Made by a program: the position numbers and the translations under genes
Source of the DNA: a bacterium
Lineage (GTDB): Bacteria > Patescibacteriota > Minisyncoccia > UBA6257 > 2-01-FULL-56-20
DNA length: 11,222 bases
Assembly: GCA_021780545.1 (NCBI GenBank)
Contig: JAJXYP010000044.1
Span: forward strand, 1 to 11,222
Reading direction: 5' to 3'
Part shown: positions 1,659 through 5,814 of the stretch, piece by piece
Numbering within the stretch: the first letter of the stretch is position 1
Layout: each line of letters starts with the position of its first letter
Notes under the pieces: generated by a model
The model's database searches: none
What the model saw: only the letters and a program-made list of their open reading frames with translations
Told to the model about the DNA's origin: nothing

Positions 1659-2947
1659 GTTATATAAACAAGCAAAGCACAAACGAGATAAACAGATTAA
1701 TCGCAACTTTAAAAAAAATCGATGTCGTTACCAACCCGGATCATTGGACCATTGGAGATCCGTTACCAGACAACCAACCCGACAACATTAACATTCATAT
1801 AAAAAATTTCATTACGGCATTCCTCTCTTGCTCCGAGGGCGGCGATAAATACGGGGATTCAATCATTGCGATCGCCAACGCATTGGATAGGGACGACGCC
1901 CGAAAATTTTTTGCCAAATATGCCGAGATAGCCACAAAAATCGAATCCGCAAAGCAATATCTACGGGAGAACTTCCGCCCGGAAAGCGGAACGACCGCGG
2001 AATTCGCGGAGCAAGCAACCCGCAATCTGCTGAGACGAGGCAACGAGCTCATCGACCAATACGCCGCGACGGTAGCCACTCACGGGGACATGACGCCTCT
2101 TCTGAAAAAACTGGATGACATACAAGCGGAAGCGATGCTTTTTACGAGCACCTTCAGGGCGCTCCGGCAAGAACTCGGTCCGCGGCCGCTCGATCTCCGC
2201 GAACTCAAATTCGCGGATTTTATCGTTTCCTCCGGCGAGATGCTTAAAGAACAGACGTCAACCGTTGAGGCAATGAAACAAATCTATCAGAAAAACTATG
2301 GCGACCGATCCCAGTATTCCAAGGAGTTCAGCGACGCCCTCCTCCGTTCGTTTGAAAATGCTCTTAATAATCCTGGCACGCGCTTCTATCTTTTGAAACA
2401 CCAAAACGATATTGCGGCATTCTGCAGGTTTGACCACGAATACCGGAACGGCGTACTTAAGGCGACCTATTTCGGCTCGTTCAATACAAATCCGACCTAC
2501 TGGCGCGGGCGCGTTGGCGAAACGATGGTCGAACAGGCGCTCAACGAAGAAAAGGAGCTCGGCGTGCCCATCTTTGCGGATTGCAATCCGCGCAGTCCCA
2601 TCACGAAAAAATATATCGAGTTTGGCTTTGTCGCTACCCGCGCCTATGAACATAACGGGACCCCGAGTCTCTCAATCGAACTCCCGCCGAAAACCGCGAC
2701 GCCGTTCACCTCCAAGCAGCTATCAAACAAAGATATTGCGACGATGGCCGACAAGGCGGGAGTCGGGCGCGAACAAAGCGACATCCTAGTCCGTTCTTAT
2801 CCGCACGACACCGAACCCGATCTGTCTCCCCTGCGCAACGAATATGCCCTGACCCGCTTCTTCGATGAGGGTAACCGCACTATCTGTGTTTTTGAAAAAA
2901 TGCCTCGCGGCGCTATCACGTCCGAGAGCCTGGAGCAGGCGGCGTAA
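1655..2947 (+). CDS. Protein with C-terminal GNAT-like acetyltransferase domain, 430 aa
   Basis: The N-terminal half (residues 1-200) is helical and unrecognised. Residues about 205-343 resemble a GNAT N-acetyltransferase fold. A strand pair around 'FYLLKHQNDIAAFCRF' is followed by a strand around 'ATYFGSFNT'. The motif-A-like loop and helix is 'RGRVGETMVEQALNEEKELG' (residues 284-303), an imperfect R-x-x-G-x-G/A acetyl-CoA loop. The next strand, 'VPIFADCNPRSPITKKYIEFGF', matches the usual GNAT 'N..a..lYek.GF' region. Residues 345-430 form an extra C-terminal segment. The start is a TTG whose last two bases lie in the TGA stop of the previous gene (TTGA). No in-frame ATG lies close by, so TTG with coupling is the best choice. 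The last 32 bases overlap the end of the convergent TrmB-like gene. Substrate unknown; GNAT assignment is by eye. Confidence 0.82.
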   Translation: MSYINKQSTNEINRLIATLKKIDVVTNPDHWTIGDPLPDNQPDNINIHIKNFITAFLSCSEGGDKYGDSIIAIANALDRDDARKFFAKYAEIATKIESAKQYLRENFRPESGTTAEFAEQATRNLLRRGNELIDQYAATVATHGDMTPLLKKLDDIQAEAMLFTSTFRALRQELGPRPLDLRELKFADFIVSSGEMLKEQTSTVEAMKQIYQKNYGDRSQYSKEFSDALLRSFENALNNPGTRFYLLKHQNDIAAFCRFDHEYRNGVLKATYFGSFNTNPTYWRGRVGETMVEQALNEEKELGVPIFADCNPRSPITKKYIEFGFVATRAYEHNGTPSLSIELPPKTATPFTSKQLSNKDIATMADKAGVGREQSDILVRSYPHDTEPDLSPLRNEYALTRFFDEGNRTICVFEKMPRGAITSESLEQAA

Positions 2948-3701
2948 TTTTTTCCGCGATCCCCCAGAGATATTCAAAGAGATATTTGTGCATATTATAA
3001 ATATGCCGATCGGCAATGATCGCACCGATCATTTTGTCGGGCTGCAGCGTGATGTATGAAATTTTGCCATCGTAGATGTTCATCACGCTTTCGAAAGGCG
3101 GAGCGTCGACCCGGATCAATCGGCTTTCGGTAACGGTCACGTGATAATCCTTAAGATACTCCCGCGTCGCGGGAGTATCGAGCAGTATGCCCCGCCGCCG
3201 TATTCCAAGCTTTTCTCGTTTCGCGACATAGGTCTTGTTAATCGCGCCAATATTCTTAATAACCGCTTCGATGTCAGCATATGAACAAATCTCCGTTTTC
3301 GAATCAAGCGTGTCGTCGAGCACCCGCTTGATTCCCTCCACTCCTTCGTAAAACAGTACGCCCGGCTTCCCCGAAGAAAGATTGTAATCCGATATCAATG
3401 ACGCAATCGCCCCTTCAAGCGCGGTATGCGCGTCGGCCGCTTCGCGTGCCCGCTGATCCGCGAGATCCTGCAGGCGCAAAGGGTGCGCGGGCTCGAAACG
3501 CGCCACGGCGCCCTTCTCGCTTTTCTTCGCCGCCAATCCGACGCCTTCCAGCTCGCCAAGCACCTTATATGTAAGGCCCCTCTTCAAGCCTGCGTAGCTG
3601 CTGATTTTACCCGCGGACAAGGGCCCATTCTTAAGCAATACTTCGTAGATTTTTGCCTGGTCGGCGGACAATCCCGCTCTGTTTAATATCTGATCATACA
3701 T
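2916..3701 (-). CDS. TrmB-family transcriptional regulator, 261 aa
   Basis: This is a DNA-binding regulator of the TrmB type. Residues 1-70 form a winged helix-turn-helix ('AGLSADQAKIYEVLLKNGPL', then 'AGKISSYAGLKRGLTYKVLGELEGVGL'). A helical linker follows (about 75-105), then a C-terminal sensor-like domain (115-250) containing 'GVEGIKRVLDDTL', the usual TrmB pattern. The frame is open upstream to 3779, but those 26 residues are AT-rich, hydrophobic and lie over the promoter. The ATG at 3701 begins exactly where family proteins begin, so I use it. A minus promoter at 3749-3721 leaves a leader of only about a dozen bases. An 18-bp palindrome at 3784-3801 is a likely operator, with a near copy over the rightward promoter at 3882-3910. 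It therefore probably controls itself and the transcript to its right. The ligand cannot be read from sequence; TrmB members often sense sugars. Confidence 0.9.
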   Translation of the reverse strand: MYDQILNRAGLSADQAKIYEVLLKNGPLSAGKISSYAGLKRGLTYKVLGELEGVGLAAKKSEKGAVARFEPAHPLRLQDLADQRAREAADAHTALEGAIASLISDYNLSSGKPGVLFYEGVEGIKRVLDDTLDSKTEICSYADIEAVIKNIGAINKTYVAKREKLGIRRRGILLDTPATREYLKDYHVTVTESRLIRVDAPPFESVMNIYDGKISYITLQPDKMIGAIIADRHIYNMHKYLFEYLWGIAEKITPPAPGSRT

Positions 3702-3720
3702 ACGTTTATCAATATATAAA

Positions 3721-3801: not shown

Positions 3802-3881
3802 TTTTTGATATATAAAATCTATATAATTAAGCTTATTTTATATGGTTTATTTCATTTCTATGTAATAATTGCCACTATCTC

Positions 3882-3910
3882 TTGACAATATTTAAATCCC
3901 ATGCTATCAT
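3882..3910 (+). promoter_or_regulatory. Near-consensus sigma70 promoter with AT-rich upstream region
   Basis: The -35 is a perfect TTGACA (3882-3887), the spacer is exactly 17 bp, and the -10 is TATCAT (3905-3910) preceded by TGC, an extended -10. About 80 bp upstream (3801-3880) is very AT-rich and could act as an UP element. This is the strongest promoter seen in the window. It has no ordinary coding gene directly downstream; predicted start is near 3917. Confidence 0.8.
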
Positions 3911-3928
3911 GTGTTTGTAAGCATGACA
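3905..3928. promoter_or_regulatory. Second operator-like site over the rightward -10
   Basis: TATCATGTGTTT (3905-3916) matches the left part of the 3784 palindrome (TGTCATATGTTT) at 10 of 12 positions. It is followed after 6 bp by the same right half-site ATGACA (3923-3928). The site covers the -10 element and start point, where a repressor would block the promoter. Confidence 0.4.
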
Positions 3929-3942
3929 GATAGATAGCTACT

Positions 3943-4007
3943 TAAAAAGATGGCTGGCGGGGAAAGGAATGGGATGGGACTGACGAACGCCCATTCCTCT
4001 CCCCAGC
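3943..4007 (-). terminator. Long hairpin with T-tract on the minus side
   Basis: The stem pairs 3965-3973 with 3990-3998 (9 bp, perfect) and 3959-3963 with 4000-4004, with a further GCT/AGC at the base. The loop is about 16 nt. Read on the minus strand it starts 4 nt after the stop of the 4383-4012 ORF and is followed by CATCTTTTT, which suits an intrinsic terminator. On the plus strand it lies about 36 nt into the leader of the strong promoter and has only a weak T-run. Confidence 0.5.
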
Positions 4008-4011
4008 AATT

Positions 4012-4383
4012 TTAGAGGAGAGACCTAAGGAGATCCGGGTAAGCGATCTTCAGCAGCTCTTTATCAAACGACGGTTGCCCGCGGATATCAATCTCGAGGA
4101 GAGGATGATTCGTGAGGGAACTTGTCAAACATTCGTCGCAGCGCATGTCATCGCTTAAAAAGAGCGAGAGCGGCAGAGGAGAAAAGGGAATCGACGACTC
4201 TATCTCCAAGCCGCGCCGATCACATGATCCATCGCGCCACAACGTTTCTTTTAGCGAGATACGTTGCCGGCGAAACGGTTTAACCCACCGCTTCACGGCA
4301 AAAATCTCCCCGAAAGAGGAGAAGCGATCCGCGGATTCGAAGAGGAGAGAGCCCGGATTGAGCAGGAATAGTAAAGAGTTCAT
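4012..4383 (-). CDS. Possible small hypothetical protein, 123 aa
   Basis: This protein is unrecognised. It has a hydrophobic N-terminus ('NSLLFLLNPGSLLF'), a basic middle ('KRWVKPFRRQR') and two cysteine patches ('GSCDRRG' and 'MRCDECL'), which could be a small metal site but is not a known motif. A hand count of G+C by codon position gives about 54, 41 and 61 percent, the order expected of a coding frame in this DNA. A terminator-like hairpin begins 4 nt after its stop. Against it: no Shine-Dalgarno, no clear minus promoter, and it lies antisense to a transcript expected from the strong plus promoter. Confidence 0.35.
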   Translation of the reverse strand: MNSLLFLLNPGSLLFESADRFSSFGEIFAVKRWVKPFRRQRISLKETLWRDGSCDRRGLEIESSIPFSPLPLSLFLSDDMRCDECLTSSLTNHPLLEIDIRGQPSFDKELLKIAYPDLLRSLL

Positions 4384-4427
4384 TAAAAACTTGATAACGA
4401 TTGCGTAGATGGCTTTGGCATTCTTAA

Positions 4428-4479
4428 TGTGGAGAGTATGGAGGACGTCGTTTTGTTGGTGTTTTCCATACTCTCCACA
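4428..4479 (+). repeat. 15-bp perfect inverted repeat in leader
   Basis: Arms TGTGGAGAGTATGGA (4428-4442) and its exact complement (4465-4479) enclose a 22-nt loop. It sits about 65 nt before the 287-aa ORF. It is the longest uninterrupted stem in the locus and could be an attenuator, processing site or structural element. Confidence 0.85.
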
Positions 4480-4488
4480 AGGGAGAGG

Positions 4489-4530
4489 CGTGTGGATATC
4501 CCGGAGTTCGGGATAAATTCAAACCACACG
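4489..4530 (+). repeat. Two-tier hairpin just before the ORF
   Basis: The outer 7-bp stem CGTGTGG/CCACACG (4489-4495 with 4524-4530) encloses an inner 7-bp stem TATCCCG/CGGGATA (4497-4503 with 4509-4515). They are separated by an asymmetric internal loop of 1 and 8 nt. It ends 13 nt before the ATG at 4544, so it could influence ribosome access. Confidence 0.75.
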
Positions 4531-4543
4531 AAAGAAAGAACAA

Positions 4544-5407
4544 ATGGGGAACGCGATAGTGATTGACTGCCGGTCGCGTGAGCTAAAAGTCTGGATGGCG
4601 TCAGCCACTCAGACGAACAATTTCCAGCTCGTGCTTCGGCACGCGCTGGAAATGGGGACACTAAAAGACCTTCTCGCGAAAAGCGAGAAGGTCGAATTCA
4701 ACCGGTTTGGAAAAAAACCGGTAAGAATAATCCGGTCCTCGTGGCCGGTCATCGCCCTGGGAAATTACCAGGCGATGAGCTCGGCGGGGCATGCCTGGGT
4801 AAAAGGGGCCGTCCCGTCGGCCGACTCCCCCCGCAGCCCGCGTTGTCTGCTGGTGGTTGGAGGGCTCGGCCGGGGCGCATTTGGCGGGAAAGGGCTCCGC
4901 GTCCTTTCCCGCCCAATTGAGGGGCAGTTGGTCGCGGGACCAACCGCCATCGATGAATTGGAGAGTTTCTCCAATTCAAATTGGACGGCGACGGAGGCGG
5001 CGGCGGCGGCAATCGATCTCCTCACAGAGATCGACAAGGAATCAATCTTCATTGAAGAAGGACAGTCGGACCGAGCCTACGTGGCGCGAATCCGCTCGTC
5101 CGCGGAAACGTCGACGACGTTTCCGGCGGAACACCGCCAGGAAATGTTTTCTCAGGAGAACATCCTACGACGGATGTTCAAATCCGCCGCGTACCGCGAG
5201 GCGCGCGGCGGCGAGGAAGAAGCCCCGCCGGACTGGGCCGTGCGGGCGGCCTGCCGCCGCCTCGCGGGGCAATACATAAAGGCGGTCGAGAAAGACCGCT
5301 GCAGCCAGCTGCTCGGGTACTGGCCCGGGTACTGGCCCGAGGCGGCGCGGCTCGCCGTCGCAACGGGATACGCAGAAGAAAACCCCTCTGAGGGTTCCGA
5401 GGGGTAG
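4544..5407 (+). CDS. Hypothetical protein, 287 aa, in hairpin-packed DNA
   Basis: I do not recognise this protein. It is soluble, with an N-terminal mixed region, a Gly/Ala/Pro-rich middle (about 85-145), and a helical C-terminal half with a penta-alanine run (near 152). 'YWPG' is repeated at 256-263 ('GYWPGYWPEAAR') because of a 12-bp tandem duplication. A hand count gives G+C of roughly 50 percent at second and 73 percent at third codon positions, a coding-like pattern matching this frame. A TAA at 4514 closes the frame upstream, so the ATG at 4544 is the first ATG; there is no clear Shine-Dalgarno. Against it, two minus frames and another plus frame are also open for 87-140 codons. The sequence is a chain of perfect inverted repeats, so it might instead be part of a long structured RNA. 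Confidence 0.5.
   Translation: MGNAIVIDCRSRELKVWMASATQTNNFQLVLRHALEMGTLKDLLAKSEKVEFNRFGKKPVRIIRSSWPVIALGNYQAMSSAGHAWVKGAVPSADSPRSPRCLLVVGGLGRGAFGGKGLRVLSRPIEGQLVAGPTAIDELESFSNSNWTATEAAAAAIDLLTEIDKESIFIEEGQSDRAYVARIRSSAETSTTFPAEHRQEMFSQENILRRMFKSAAYREARGGEEEAPPDWAVRAACRRLAGQYIKAVEKDRCSQLLGYWPGYWPEAARLAVATGYAEENPSEGSEG
4620..5300 (+). repeat. Serial hairpins through the 287-aa ORF
   Basis: Stems read directly, with perfect arms unless noted: 4620-4634 with 4639-4653 (one mismatch, C(TTCG)G tetraloop); 4667-4677 with 4683-4693 (GAAAA loop); 4701-4708 with 4715-4722; 4732-4737 with 4743-4748 (one wobble); 4750-4760 with 4768-4777 (one bulge); 4807-4811 with 4818-4822; 4883-4893 with 4903-4913; 4927-4933 with 4938-4944; 4955-4964 with 4968-4977; 5013-5020 with 5027-5034; 5046-5050 with 5054-5058; 5103-5112 with 5116-5125; 5125-5129 with 5134-5138 (competes with the previous stem); 5158-5165 with 5172-5179; 5184-5191 with 5204-5211; 5222-5228 with 5264-5270 around 5245-5249 with 5254-5258; 5282-5287 with 5294-5299. 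This is far above chance; the flanking genes examined by eye do not show it. Confidence 0.85.
5314..5337 (+). repeat. Tandem 12-bp duplication
   Basis: CGGGTACTGGCC occurs twice back to back (5314-5325 and 5326-5337). It keeps the 4544 frame and duplicates Gly-Tyr-Trp-Pro. The block can also fold, with CTCGGG (5312-5317) pairing with CCCGAG (5336-5341). Confidence 0.85.
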
Positions 5408-5412
5408 GGGTT

Positions 5413-5466
5413 AAACAGAGTTTCGAGAGTTCTCTTCAAAAACTCTCTCTGTTTTTCATTTTTTTT
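5413..5466 (+). terminator. Strong intrinsic terminator
   Basis: AAACAGAG (5413-5420) pairs with CTCTGTTT (5447-5454), enclosing GAGAGTT/AACTCTC (5425-5431 with 5441-5447). It is followed by TTTTT, CA and eight Ts. It starts 6 nt after the stop of the 287-aa ORF and defines the right end of the structured transcript. A further G-rich fold (AACCCC 5381-5386 with GGGGTT 5407-5412) lies directly upstream. Confidence 0.85.
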
Positions 5467-5492
5467 AGATGTGCATCTGGGCTGGCGAGGTT

Positions 5493-5521
5493 AAAAAATG
5501 GGGGGCGAAAAGCCCTTTTTT
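5493..5521. terminator. Small bidirectional terminator
   Basis: GGGC (5503-5506) and GCCC (5512-5515) form a short stem with a GAAAA loop, flanked by A6 on the left and T6 on the right. It could stop transcripts from either side and separates the structured locus from the rod-like repeat and tRNA. Confidence 0.6.
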
Positions 5522-5558
5522 CCATAAAAGACGAGACAAAAAAAGCACCTTTTGCCGC

Positions 5559-5668
5559 CGTAGAACTGCGAGACAAACAACGGGATTGGACGGAGGGTTG
5601 CGAACATACTCTCCTCTAAACGCCGCCCCCGGCTCATCATATCCGGTTTGTTTGCTCGCAGTTCTACG
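5559..5668. repeat. 110-nt rod-like inverted repeat beside tRNA-Lys
   Basis: CGTAGAACTGCGAG (5559-5572) is exactly complementary to 5655-5668. Pairing continues with bulges through 5574-5586 against 5641-5654, giving about 25 bp in all. The 54-nt interior can form a second stem, 5592-5598 with 5608-5614 (one wobble). It ends 10 nt before the tRNA. It does not carry 5S rRNA, SRP or 6S signatures that I can see. It could be a small structured RNA, a processing element for the tRNA transcript, or a remnant of an inserted element. Confidence 0.7.
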
Positions 5669-5678
5669 AATGAAACGG

Positions 5679-5751
5679 GCCTCCTTAGCTCAGTCGGTAG
5701 AGCAGCTCCCTTTTAAGGAGACGGTCGCAGGTTCGATCCCTGCAGGAGGCA
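5679..5751 (+). tRNA. tRNA-Lys (anticodon TTT)
   Basis: The full cloverleaf reads as follows. Acceptor GCCTCCT (5679-5685) pairs with AGGAGGC (5744-5750), with discriminator A at 5751. The D stem is GCTC/GAGC (5688-5691 with 5700-5703). The anticodon loop CTTTTAA (5710-5716) has TTT at 5712-5714. The T stem GCAGG/CCTGC (5727-5731 with 5739-5743) closes loop TTCGATC. CCA is not encoded, so a CCA-adding enzyme must finish it. The first anticodon-stem pair (5705-5721) is a G-A mismatch. Confidence 0.95.
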
Positions 5752-5814
5752 CGTATCAGGTATTCTATGAACTAACCGGTGTTGCACTTGAAAGTTGAAT
5801 GTACCCGGGGCGTT

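Follow-up and report, generated by a model that had tools for sequence, protein, structure and literature searches.

Within an 11,222-nucleotide contig of a Patescibacteria genome (JAJXYP010000044.1, assembly GCA_021780545.1; hereafter the window), we found a chain of perfect hairpins inside a protein-coding gene that follows a structured 5' leader and is transcribed divergently from a gene for a TrmB-family regulator. Positions 3882–5466 form one predicted transcription unit, with a transcript of ~1.55 kb. We lean, though not by much, toward reading this unit as a member of a recurrent kind of Patescibacteria operon, in which a divergent TrmB gene, a strong promoter and a structured leader accompany a tightly folding cargo mRNA, together yielding an armored, long-lived message. 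The architecture is well supported, and computation shows it along with structure at synonymous sites, a bias toward the sense strand and the association with TrmB; the function we infer.

A chain of hairpins within a protein-coding gene

An earlier sequence-only reading of this DNA had described at least nine stems of 8 bp or more between 4620 and 5211, with 0.1–0.2 expected by chance. Allowing loops of 3–15 nt, we likewise counted nine perfect stems of this length, and 500 dinucleotide-preserving shuffles gave a mean of 0.20, in agreement with that expectation, and a maximum of 3. The stable loops it had named, C-TTCG-G and GAAAA, are present. Its mismatch-free arms of 15, 11, 11 and 10 bp were recovered, but a second 10-bp arm was not: within the loop limit, the perfect arms in the chain measure 11, 11, 11 and 10 bp (at 4667, 4883, 4954 and 5103). 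The 15-bp arm (4428–4442 with 4465–4479, across a 22-nt gap) belongs to the leader, where inner G-U pairs extend it into a single 23-bp hairpin. The proposed extent, 4428–5466, is indeed structured, but the unit is larger, reaching from the promoter through the leader to 5466. As for the intrinsic terminator placed at its end, a terminator-like stem and a T run are there, but a consensus scan did not list them as a terminator.

Folding is concentrated in this part of the window. The minimum free energy (MFE) had z scores of -3.3 to -6.6 in all six 300-nt bins from 3901 to 5700, compared with -2.1 to +4.8 in the remaining bins. Elsewhere in the genome, across 20 contigs totaling 159 kb, none of 287 segments of 1 kb held more than three such stems.

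The chain lies entirely within an open reading frame (ORF) of 287 amino acids (aa), at 4544–5407. Besides the window's own protein, one homologue was found at E <= 0.001: P0002, a 323-aa protein from a 1150-bp contig, with 45% identity over 79% of the query (241 aa, E 1.6e-45). From this homologue, which aligns with its gaps in frame, we conclude that the ORF is a real gene, and on the same ground we reject a stand-alone non-coding RNA for 4544–5407. Thus, the comparison with large ornate RNAs such as OLE, GOLLD and ROOL, which the sequence-only reading had offered, fails for this conserved protein gene but fits the leader at 3917–4540. The protein matched no Pfam, NCBIfam or PADLOC family, and an AlphaFold2 model built from two sequences (pLDDT 36.5) was not used.

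The other possibility raised from sequence, an mRNA whose fold is under selection, is supported by folding energies that lie below those of codon-preserving shuffles, at z -6.2 to -8.5. For the window ORF, 16 shuffles that held the protein and the codon counts constant gave z -6.2; a further codon-preserving comparison gave -6.8, with 0 of 30 shuffles as low, and the first 660 nt reached a synonymous-shuffle z of -8.5. As controls we used 120 long ORFs, 40 drawn at random from each of the G000, G016 and G029 regions and selected by length, not by homology. Their mean z was -0.65 and their minimum -5.2; three reached -3.6 and none reached -6. Five other window genes had synonymous z scores of -1.5 to +0.4. 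The most structured control ORF (L049, G000:C7, 5841–6614; z -5.2) is, as far as seen, not at a TrmB locus, and G000:C7 carries several moderately structured runs.

The start region of the window gene is predicted to be open, with a mean pairing of 0.27 compared with 0.66 for the transcript. Across 20 genes, mean pairing at start regions was 0.53–0.58, compared with ~0.67 in their surroundings, and 8 of the 20 fell in the lowest 5% of their own context.

The leader in related genomes

Searching 151 genomes, the window's own included, we found the leader in two others, G016 (84% identity over 338 nt) and G029 (78% over 402 nt). In both it adjoins the same TrmB-family gene, with 67–76% identity to the window's copy, and TTGACA of the promoter is retained at the equivalent place. 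The genes behind the leader differ, with four ORFs in G029 and a set in G016 that includes a radical-SAM and an AAA protein. All four G029 ORFs are strongly structured at synonymous sites (z -15.2, -11.8, -13.1 and -18.3); the eight G016 ORFs tested range from -2.0 to -6.6, the weaker ones within the control range.

Run against 244 genomes of the order, a covariance model of the leader core, R1, recovered only the window, G016 and G029, and a weak match in G223 (E 0.002) that we took as chance. R1 had no match in six other loci, none rose above noise by nhmmer, and an exact leader pattern run against GTDB contigs found only the two relatives. In the core, 98% of 196 cells are paired, compared with 39.5–50.3% when partners are slid. 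Covariation, which the sequence-only reading had proposed to look for, is present to a modest degree: across the three genomes, 16 of 116 consensus pairs carry a compensated change on both sides, and in the core both sides had changed in 4 of 66 pairs, a score also reached by 12 of 500 letter shuffles. Since three sequences are few, we regard this as supportive, not conclusive. At gathering cut-offs Rfam returned tRNA only, and an E-value search of 3880–5680 gave two matches (E 0.89 and 4.8), both below cut-off.

Purine boxes of the form GAGGAGAG number three in the window's leader, five in that of G016 and four in that of G029, and none of 500 shuffles reached these counts; the G678 and G675 leaders have none. 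The element GTTCATTAAAAACTTGATAA we take to be boxA-like in name and, presumably, in function.

Structure beside TrmB genes across the phylum

TrmB homologues keep the same divergent position at other structured loci; that of G678, 35% identical, lies divergent from the G678 leader. So that loci were chosen by their regulator, not by structure or cargo, we aligned four TrmB genes, from the window, G016, G029 and G678, and used the alignment to search 267 genomes of the phylum, of which 67 matched at E <= 1e-30. For a comparison of flanks we took the best 30 loci among the TrmB matches listed and kept 25, setting aside the discovery loci L121 and L122, two with too short a downstream flank (L128 and L149) and one with no upstream flank (L130). 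Mean z was -1.77 on the divergent flank and 0.13 on the other, the divergent flank being lower at 22 of 25 loci (Wilcoxon p 3.3e-6). Mean z scores of -1 or below occurred on 18 of 25 divergent flanks but on only 1 of 25 other flanks.

We then scanned longer divergent stretches in 16 of 20 regions (L153, L154, L159 and L168 were left out), and in most of the 16 the structure runs for ~1.5–9 kb. Among 18 cargo genes in structured stretches, 17 had synonymous z scores of -3.7 to -19.8 and one of -0.6; two genes beyond the structured stretch had +0.5 and -1.7. The best promoter-like match lay 110–213 nt from the TrmB start in 11 of 14 regions scanned. A second leader family, 77–87% identical among G694, G748 and G784, likewise precedes partly different cargo: G694 and G748 have a DHH-like gene in common and then diverge, and the short G784 contig carries an 85-aa ORF with a similar ORF in G694. 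TrmB was not seen beside every structured locus; the G675 leader (L120) has another gene upstream.

Otherwise unrelated leaders contain a repeat like GTCATTCTGAGCGAAGCGAAGAATC (L155 394–420, L164 661–687 and L152 1457–1506, as offsets from the TrmB start), which we take to resemble a widespread palindromic repeat.

Cargo genes at other loci

For the family of the first G029 ORF (L007 3768–4718, minus strand) we found at least 915 metagenomic homologues, the best 120 of them 59–71% identical; the ORF itself has no Pfam or NCBIfam match. Its structural model (pLDDT 89.7) had RecJ, PAP phosphatase, DhhP and NrnA as best PDB matches, all partial (E 8e-5 at best, TM-scores ~0.3), and the family keeps the Asp/His positions of the DHH type; we call it DHH-like. 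The order yielded homologues in 4 of 244 genomes, the class in 4 of 383 and the phylum in 4 of 379, with G128 counted twice. Synonymous z was -2.2 or lower in 8 of 11 DHH-like genes, and several lie in structured stretches, which extend up to 11 kb in G448.

Other cargo is varied. G448 and G669 both carry GNAT proteins and HrpA-like helicases, G448 also a SAVED protein; G806 has an AAA-Csx3 gene (E 3.1e-56) and G805 a bpMoxR gene (E 4.6e-14). In G641 the gene after a bpMoxR homologue encodes a protein whose vWA-like domain falls just short of the Pfam cut-off. Radical-SAM proteins occur as well, and many cargo genes are unknown. Some genes recur: a leader-proximal ORF is common to G016 and G641 (58% identity), and two ORFs are common to G029 and G748 (58% and 63%). 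Judged by such homologies, the cargo appears to have the flavor of conflict or recovery systems.

Near the structured operons of G441 and G314 are PIN-like (VapC-type) ORFs, named by eye (L092 8379–9865 and L093 10633–11097); the 123-aa and 154-aa PIN-like ORFs are 34% identical.

Strand bias and shared stems

The sense strand was on average more structured than the antisense strand in 22 of 22 loci picked as structured, namely nine known before the regulator search, the window among them, plus 13 TrmB loci; G103 was not included. By individual segments, the sense strand was better in 353 of 419 structured ones, compared with 28 of 54 control coding segments of like strength. Given this bias in all 22 loci, selection seems to act on RNA. 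The choice of the 13 structured TrmB loci for this comparison was made post hoc, as were the z cut-off of -2.2 and the motif definitions.

Individual stems are kept in part. For five pairs of orthologous cargo genes from distant genomes, shared stems exceeded all 25 double synonymous shuffles in three (55 stems versus at most 22, 44 versus 22, and 34 versus 27). For the DHH-like gene, in 4 of 15 locus pairs the number of shared base pairs was equaled by no more than 3% of shifted controls (G029/G128, 53; G029/G669, 28; G448/G128, 21; G441/G669, 17). The remaining 11 pairs did not rise above the shifted-control level, and 2 of these share none. One fixed fold is thus rejected, by these 11 pairs and by the 2 of 5 ortholog pairs not above controls. 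Because stem sharing is partial in both sets, we retain the notion of structuredness with some kept stems.

G448 holds two copies of a module consisting of a hairpin leader and an ORF of ~150 aa (L091 1380–2160 and 6180–6960; 74% identical over 117 aa). Both lie in one structured operon and, by inspection, distal stem arms have changed yet still pair.

Features of the window

Table 1. Features of the predicted transcription unit and its regulator (window coordinates).
Feature	Position	Strand	Evidence
TrmB-family winged-helix regulator gene, divergent from the structured transcript	2916..3704	-	PF01978, E 1.8e-10
Sigma-70-type promoter, TTGACA-17-TATCAT, TG before the -10 box	3882..3910	+	11/12 consensus matches
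Structured 5' leader RNA (~0.6 kb), start inferred from the promoter	3917..4540	+	Conserved in G016 and G029
Three GAGGAGAG purine boxes, Shine-Dalgarno-like (4015, 4096, 4342)	4015..4349	+	Shuffle test
Leader core, most conserved part and basis of model R1	4134..4322	+	Pairing and alignment
Degenerate boxA-like element GTTCATTAAAAACTTGATAA	4378..4397	+	Better copies in G029, G016 and other leaders
Leader hairpin with 15-bp perfect outer stem, directly 5' of the gene	4428..4479	+	MFE -34.6 kcal/mol, z -8.9
Gene for a 287-aa protein of unknown family	4544..5407	+	Homologue P0002; synonymous-shuffle z
Chain of nine perfect hairpins	4620..5211	+	Stem count versus dinucleotide shuffles
Terminator-like stem-loop and T run	5413..5466	+	z -3.1; absent from the list of a simple consensus scan

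Around the terminator-like stem, the only other matches in our first search for relatives were shorter and were not leaders: 5410–5448, in the stem region, resembles a G062 stretch (88% over 41 nt), and 5507–5544 a G127 stretch (84% over 38 nt), perhaps a shared terminator element. Between this stem and a tRNA-Lys gene (5679–5752) lies a long imperfect hairpin (5559–5668, z -7.2), which might belong to a tRNA leader or be a small mobile repeat.

On the other side of the unit, two adjoining plus-strand ORFs of 543 and 430 aa (27–2947) match one continuous gene of 917–940 aa in G016 and G029, which encodes a C-terminal GNAT domain. In the window a frame change, either genuine or an assembly error, divides this gene in two. 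A C-terminal homologue (25%) of the split gene also adjoins the TrmB gene in G678.

Discussion

By computation, the coding sequences of these operons fold into near-continuous local hairpins, beyond what protein and codon counts entail and more so on the sense strand, and leader and regulator stay constant while cargo genes change. Selection may act mainly on the degree of structure and on low exposure of the mRNA, while also keeping some individual stems. A message of this kind could outlast attack by single-strand-specific RNases, whether from immunity, from a toxin or in the course of decay during dormancy, and would thus still allow conflict or recovery proteins to be made. Protection of the 5' end would fall to the leader, through its hairpins and its Shine-Dalgarno-like purine boxes, and activation of the unit to TrmB.

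Extended to all Patescibacteria, the proposal describes phylum-wide TrmB-linked operons whose mRNAs have evolved to be largely double-stranded in cis, with exchangeable cargo behind a leader that stays constant. The fold would be a bacterial analogue of the ordered RNA structure of viruses and would serve as nuclease armor, letting conflict or recovery genes be expressed when other messages are being degraded or when the cell lies dormant on its host. We hold this wider claim tentatively and think it somewhat more apt to fail than to hold.

Several observations weigh against the armored-message reading. In the window itself the sense/antisense margin is small (-4.09 versus -3.86; sense better in 4 of 6 segments), so the plus-strand RNA of the sequence-only reading holds at the level of the class but less firmly here, and the window's stems show no preference for G-U over A-C (4:8). 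In the survey, 7 of 25 divergent flanks had a mean z above -1, and at 3 of 25 loci the divergent flank did not fall below the other; G627, G757 and G751 had little structure in their longer stretches. Only 4 of 11 DHH-like genes (G029, G441, G314 and G448) go beyond the control minimum of -5.2. Homologues that keep the protein without the stems, a case the sequence-only reading had singled out, do occur in part: the DHH-like genes of G216, G656 and, weakly, G103 are not structured, though G103 has a structured stretch upstream. Among the 20 start regions, 12 lie outside the lowest 5% of their context and 5 lie above the median. The conflict or recovery theme draws on a few recognizable genes, none of them in the window, because much of the cargo is unknown; homology to known conflict proteins appears only at some other loci, and the window ORF has none (no PADLOC family). 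Finally, the best Cas10 palm model matched only 1 of 20 of these genomes, marginally; a type III CRISPR RNase is thus not available as a rule, and we rejected it as the attacking RNase.

Other explanations make different use of the same structure. The folded mRNA could be a translation switch, silent until an RNA helicase or some condition opens the operon, and self-regulating where HrpA-like helicases are part of the cargo. Such helicases occur in three operons (G448, G669 and G665), another DEAD helicase gene lies upstream of the G675 leader, and whole ORFs are structured. Yet stems throughout ORFs would be a poor block to initiation, start regions are on average open, not hidden, and the window's unit has a single gene and no helicase; we consider a switch unlikely. 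Slightly less likely still, in our view, is anti-termination or avoidance of Rho, whereby structured RNA and a boxA-like element at the leader end would allow long, poorly translated operons, as in rRNA operons. The strict motif YTTGAMAAYTDAATA was found in 6 of 21 leader stretches where 0.02 were expected, although five of these leaders (G016, G029, G694, G748 and G784) had served to define it and only the sixth, G750, had not; G805 has a one-mismatch copy, and looser copies recur in G448. The motif is missing even at one mismatch from 13 of the 21 stretches, the window's included, it was not convincingly found in the rRNA loci retrieved from these bacteria (LSU rRNA was matched in 3 of 7 genomes, in pieces), and anti-termination does not account for the structure within a unit as short as the window's, with its single gene.

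Structuring along the whole RNA, as in RNA-virus genomes, would also suit a transcript that itself travels, in a particle or into a host or neighboring cell, and is compact like the genomes of single-stranded RNA phages; so would variable cargo behind a constant 5' leader, which might be a packaging signal. We think this improbable: the part of the cargo proteins put to Pfam included no capsid, polymerase or reverse transcriptase, and phage and plasmid collections and IMG/VR gave no match for the queries tried, on which ground we also rejected a phage or plasmid origin. More doubtful still is a large non-coding ornate RNA with its ORF an accident of a stop-free frame. The layout from promoter to terminator and the structure are those of OLE/GOLLD/ROOL-type genes, and the window ORF lacks a known family, but the in-frame homology to P0002 largely refutes this reading, and relatives hold known enzymes in the same structured position. 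To a cause in mutation or DNA, such as palindromes made by template switching or cruciform-forming DNA, we give the least credence. Many arms are perfect, and with 4-bp flanks both G-U (45, versus 13 in shuffles) and A-C mismatches (39 versus 12) exceed shuffles in the stems, with no significant difference between them (p 0.59). Summed with 3-bp flanks, however, G-U outnumbers A-C by 344:265 (p 0.0016), structure lies mostly on one side of the regulator, stems carry compensated changes, and the sense-strand bias at every locus in the strand comparison contradicts a DNA-level origin. Selection for a tightly folded, protected message remains the reading that we favor.

Coding sequences selected over kilobases to fold tightly are known from RNA viruses and from designed therapeutic mRNAs. 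Genome-scale ordered RNA structure (GORS) is a feature of persistent positive-strand RNA viruses and is linked to persistence. As in GORS, coding RNA of the window's type folds better than sequence-order and codon-preserving controls, the structure continues along the whole RNA through many local hairpins (here in runs of ~1.5 to 11 kb), and particular stems are only partly conserved. Unlike GORS, it resides here in chromosomal bacterial operons beside a conserved regulator and under a conserved leader, with changing cargo. Because ordinary genes lie alongside and the viral and plasmid searches were negative, we regard the locus as working like GORS, not as a member of it. Among the matches listed, the literature on ordered RNA structure concerned viruses, synthetic genes or methods only, as far as the available parts of those sources go.

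With OLE, GOLLD and ROOL RNAs the window shares a long transcript with many stable stems between promoter and terminator and a tRNA gene nearby; it differs in having no Rfam match, in carrying the stems of the chain in protein-coding sequence and in a lineage-specific leader of ~0.5–1 kb. The STAB-SD leader of Bacillus thuringiensis cry genes has a Shine-Dalgarno-like purine box and is proposed to protect its mRNA. Our leaders also have Shine-Dalgarno-like purine boxes, but several of them, together with a large structured leader and a structured coding region, and any stabilization here is putative only. The bpMoxR cargo of G805 recalls the MoxR-vWA ternary NTP-dependent conflict systems as presented in the accessible part of Kaur et al. 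2020 (PMC7159879), but is one cargo type among many here; that part of the paper contains neither TrmB nor DHH, and 'mRNA' only in a reference. By title and start of abstract, no description of such operons appeared among the matches listed for the open-access literature, subscription journals and preprint servers being mostly outside this scope.

As the window illustrates, what looks like an 'ornate RNA' in a metagenome can be a protein gene. If our reading is true, these operons would represent a new layer of gene expression, in which the durability of an mRNA is written into synonymous sites, and a class of chromosomal bacterial operons tied to one regulator family that keeps a property while its genes change. 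They would supply natural examples of structure-optimized mRNA, and would bear on how reduced, host-dependent bacteria keep selected genes on.

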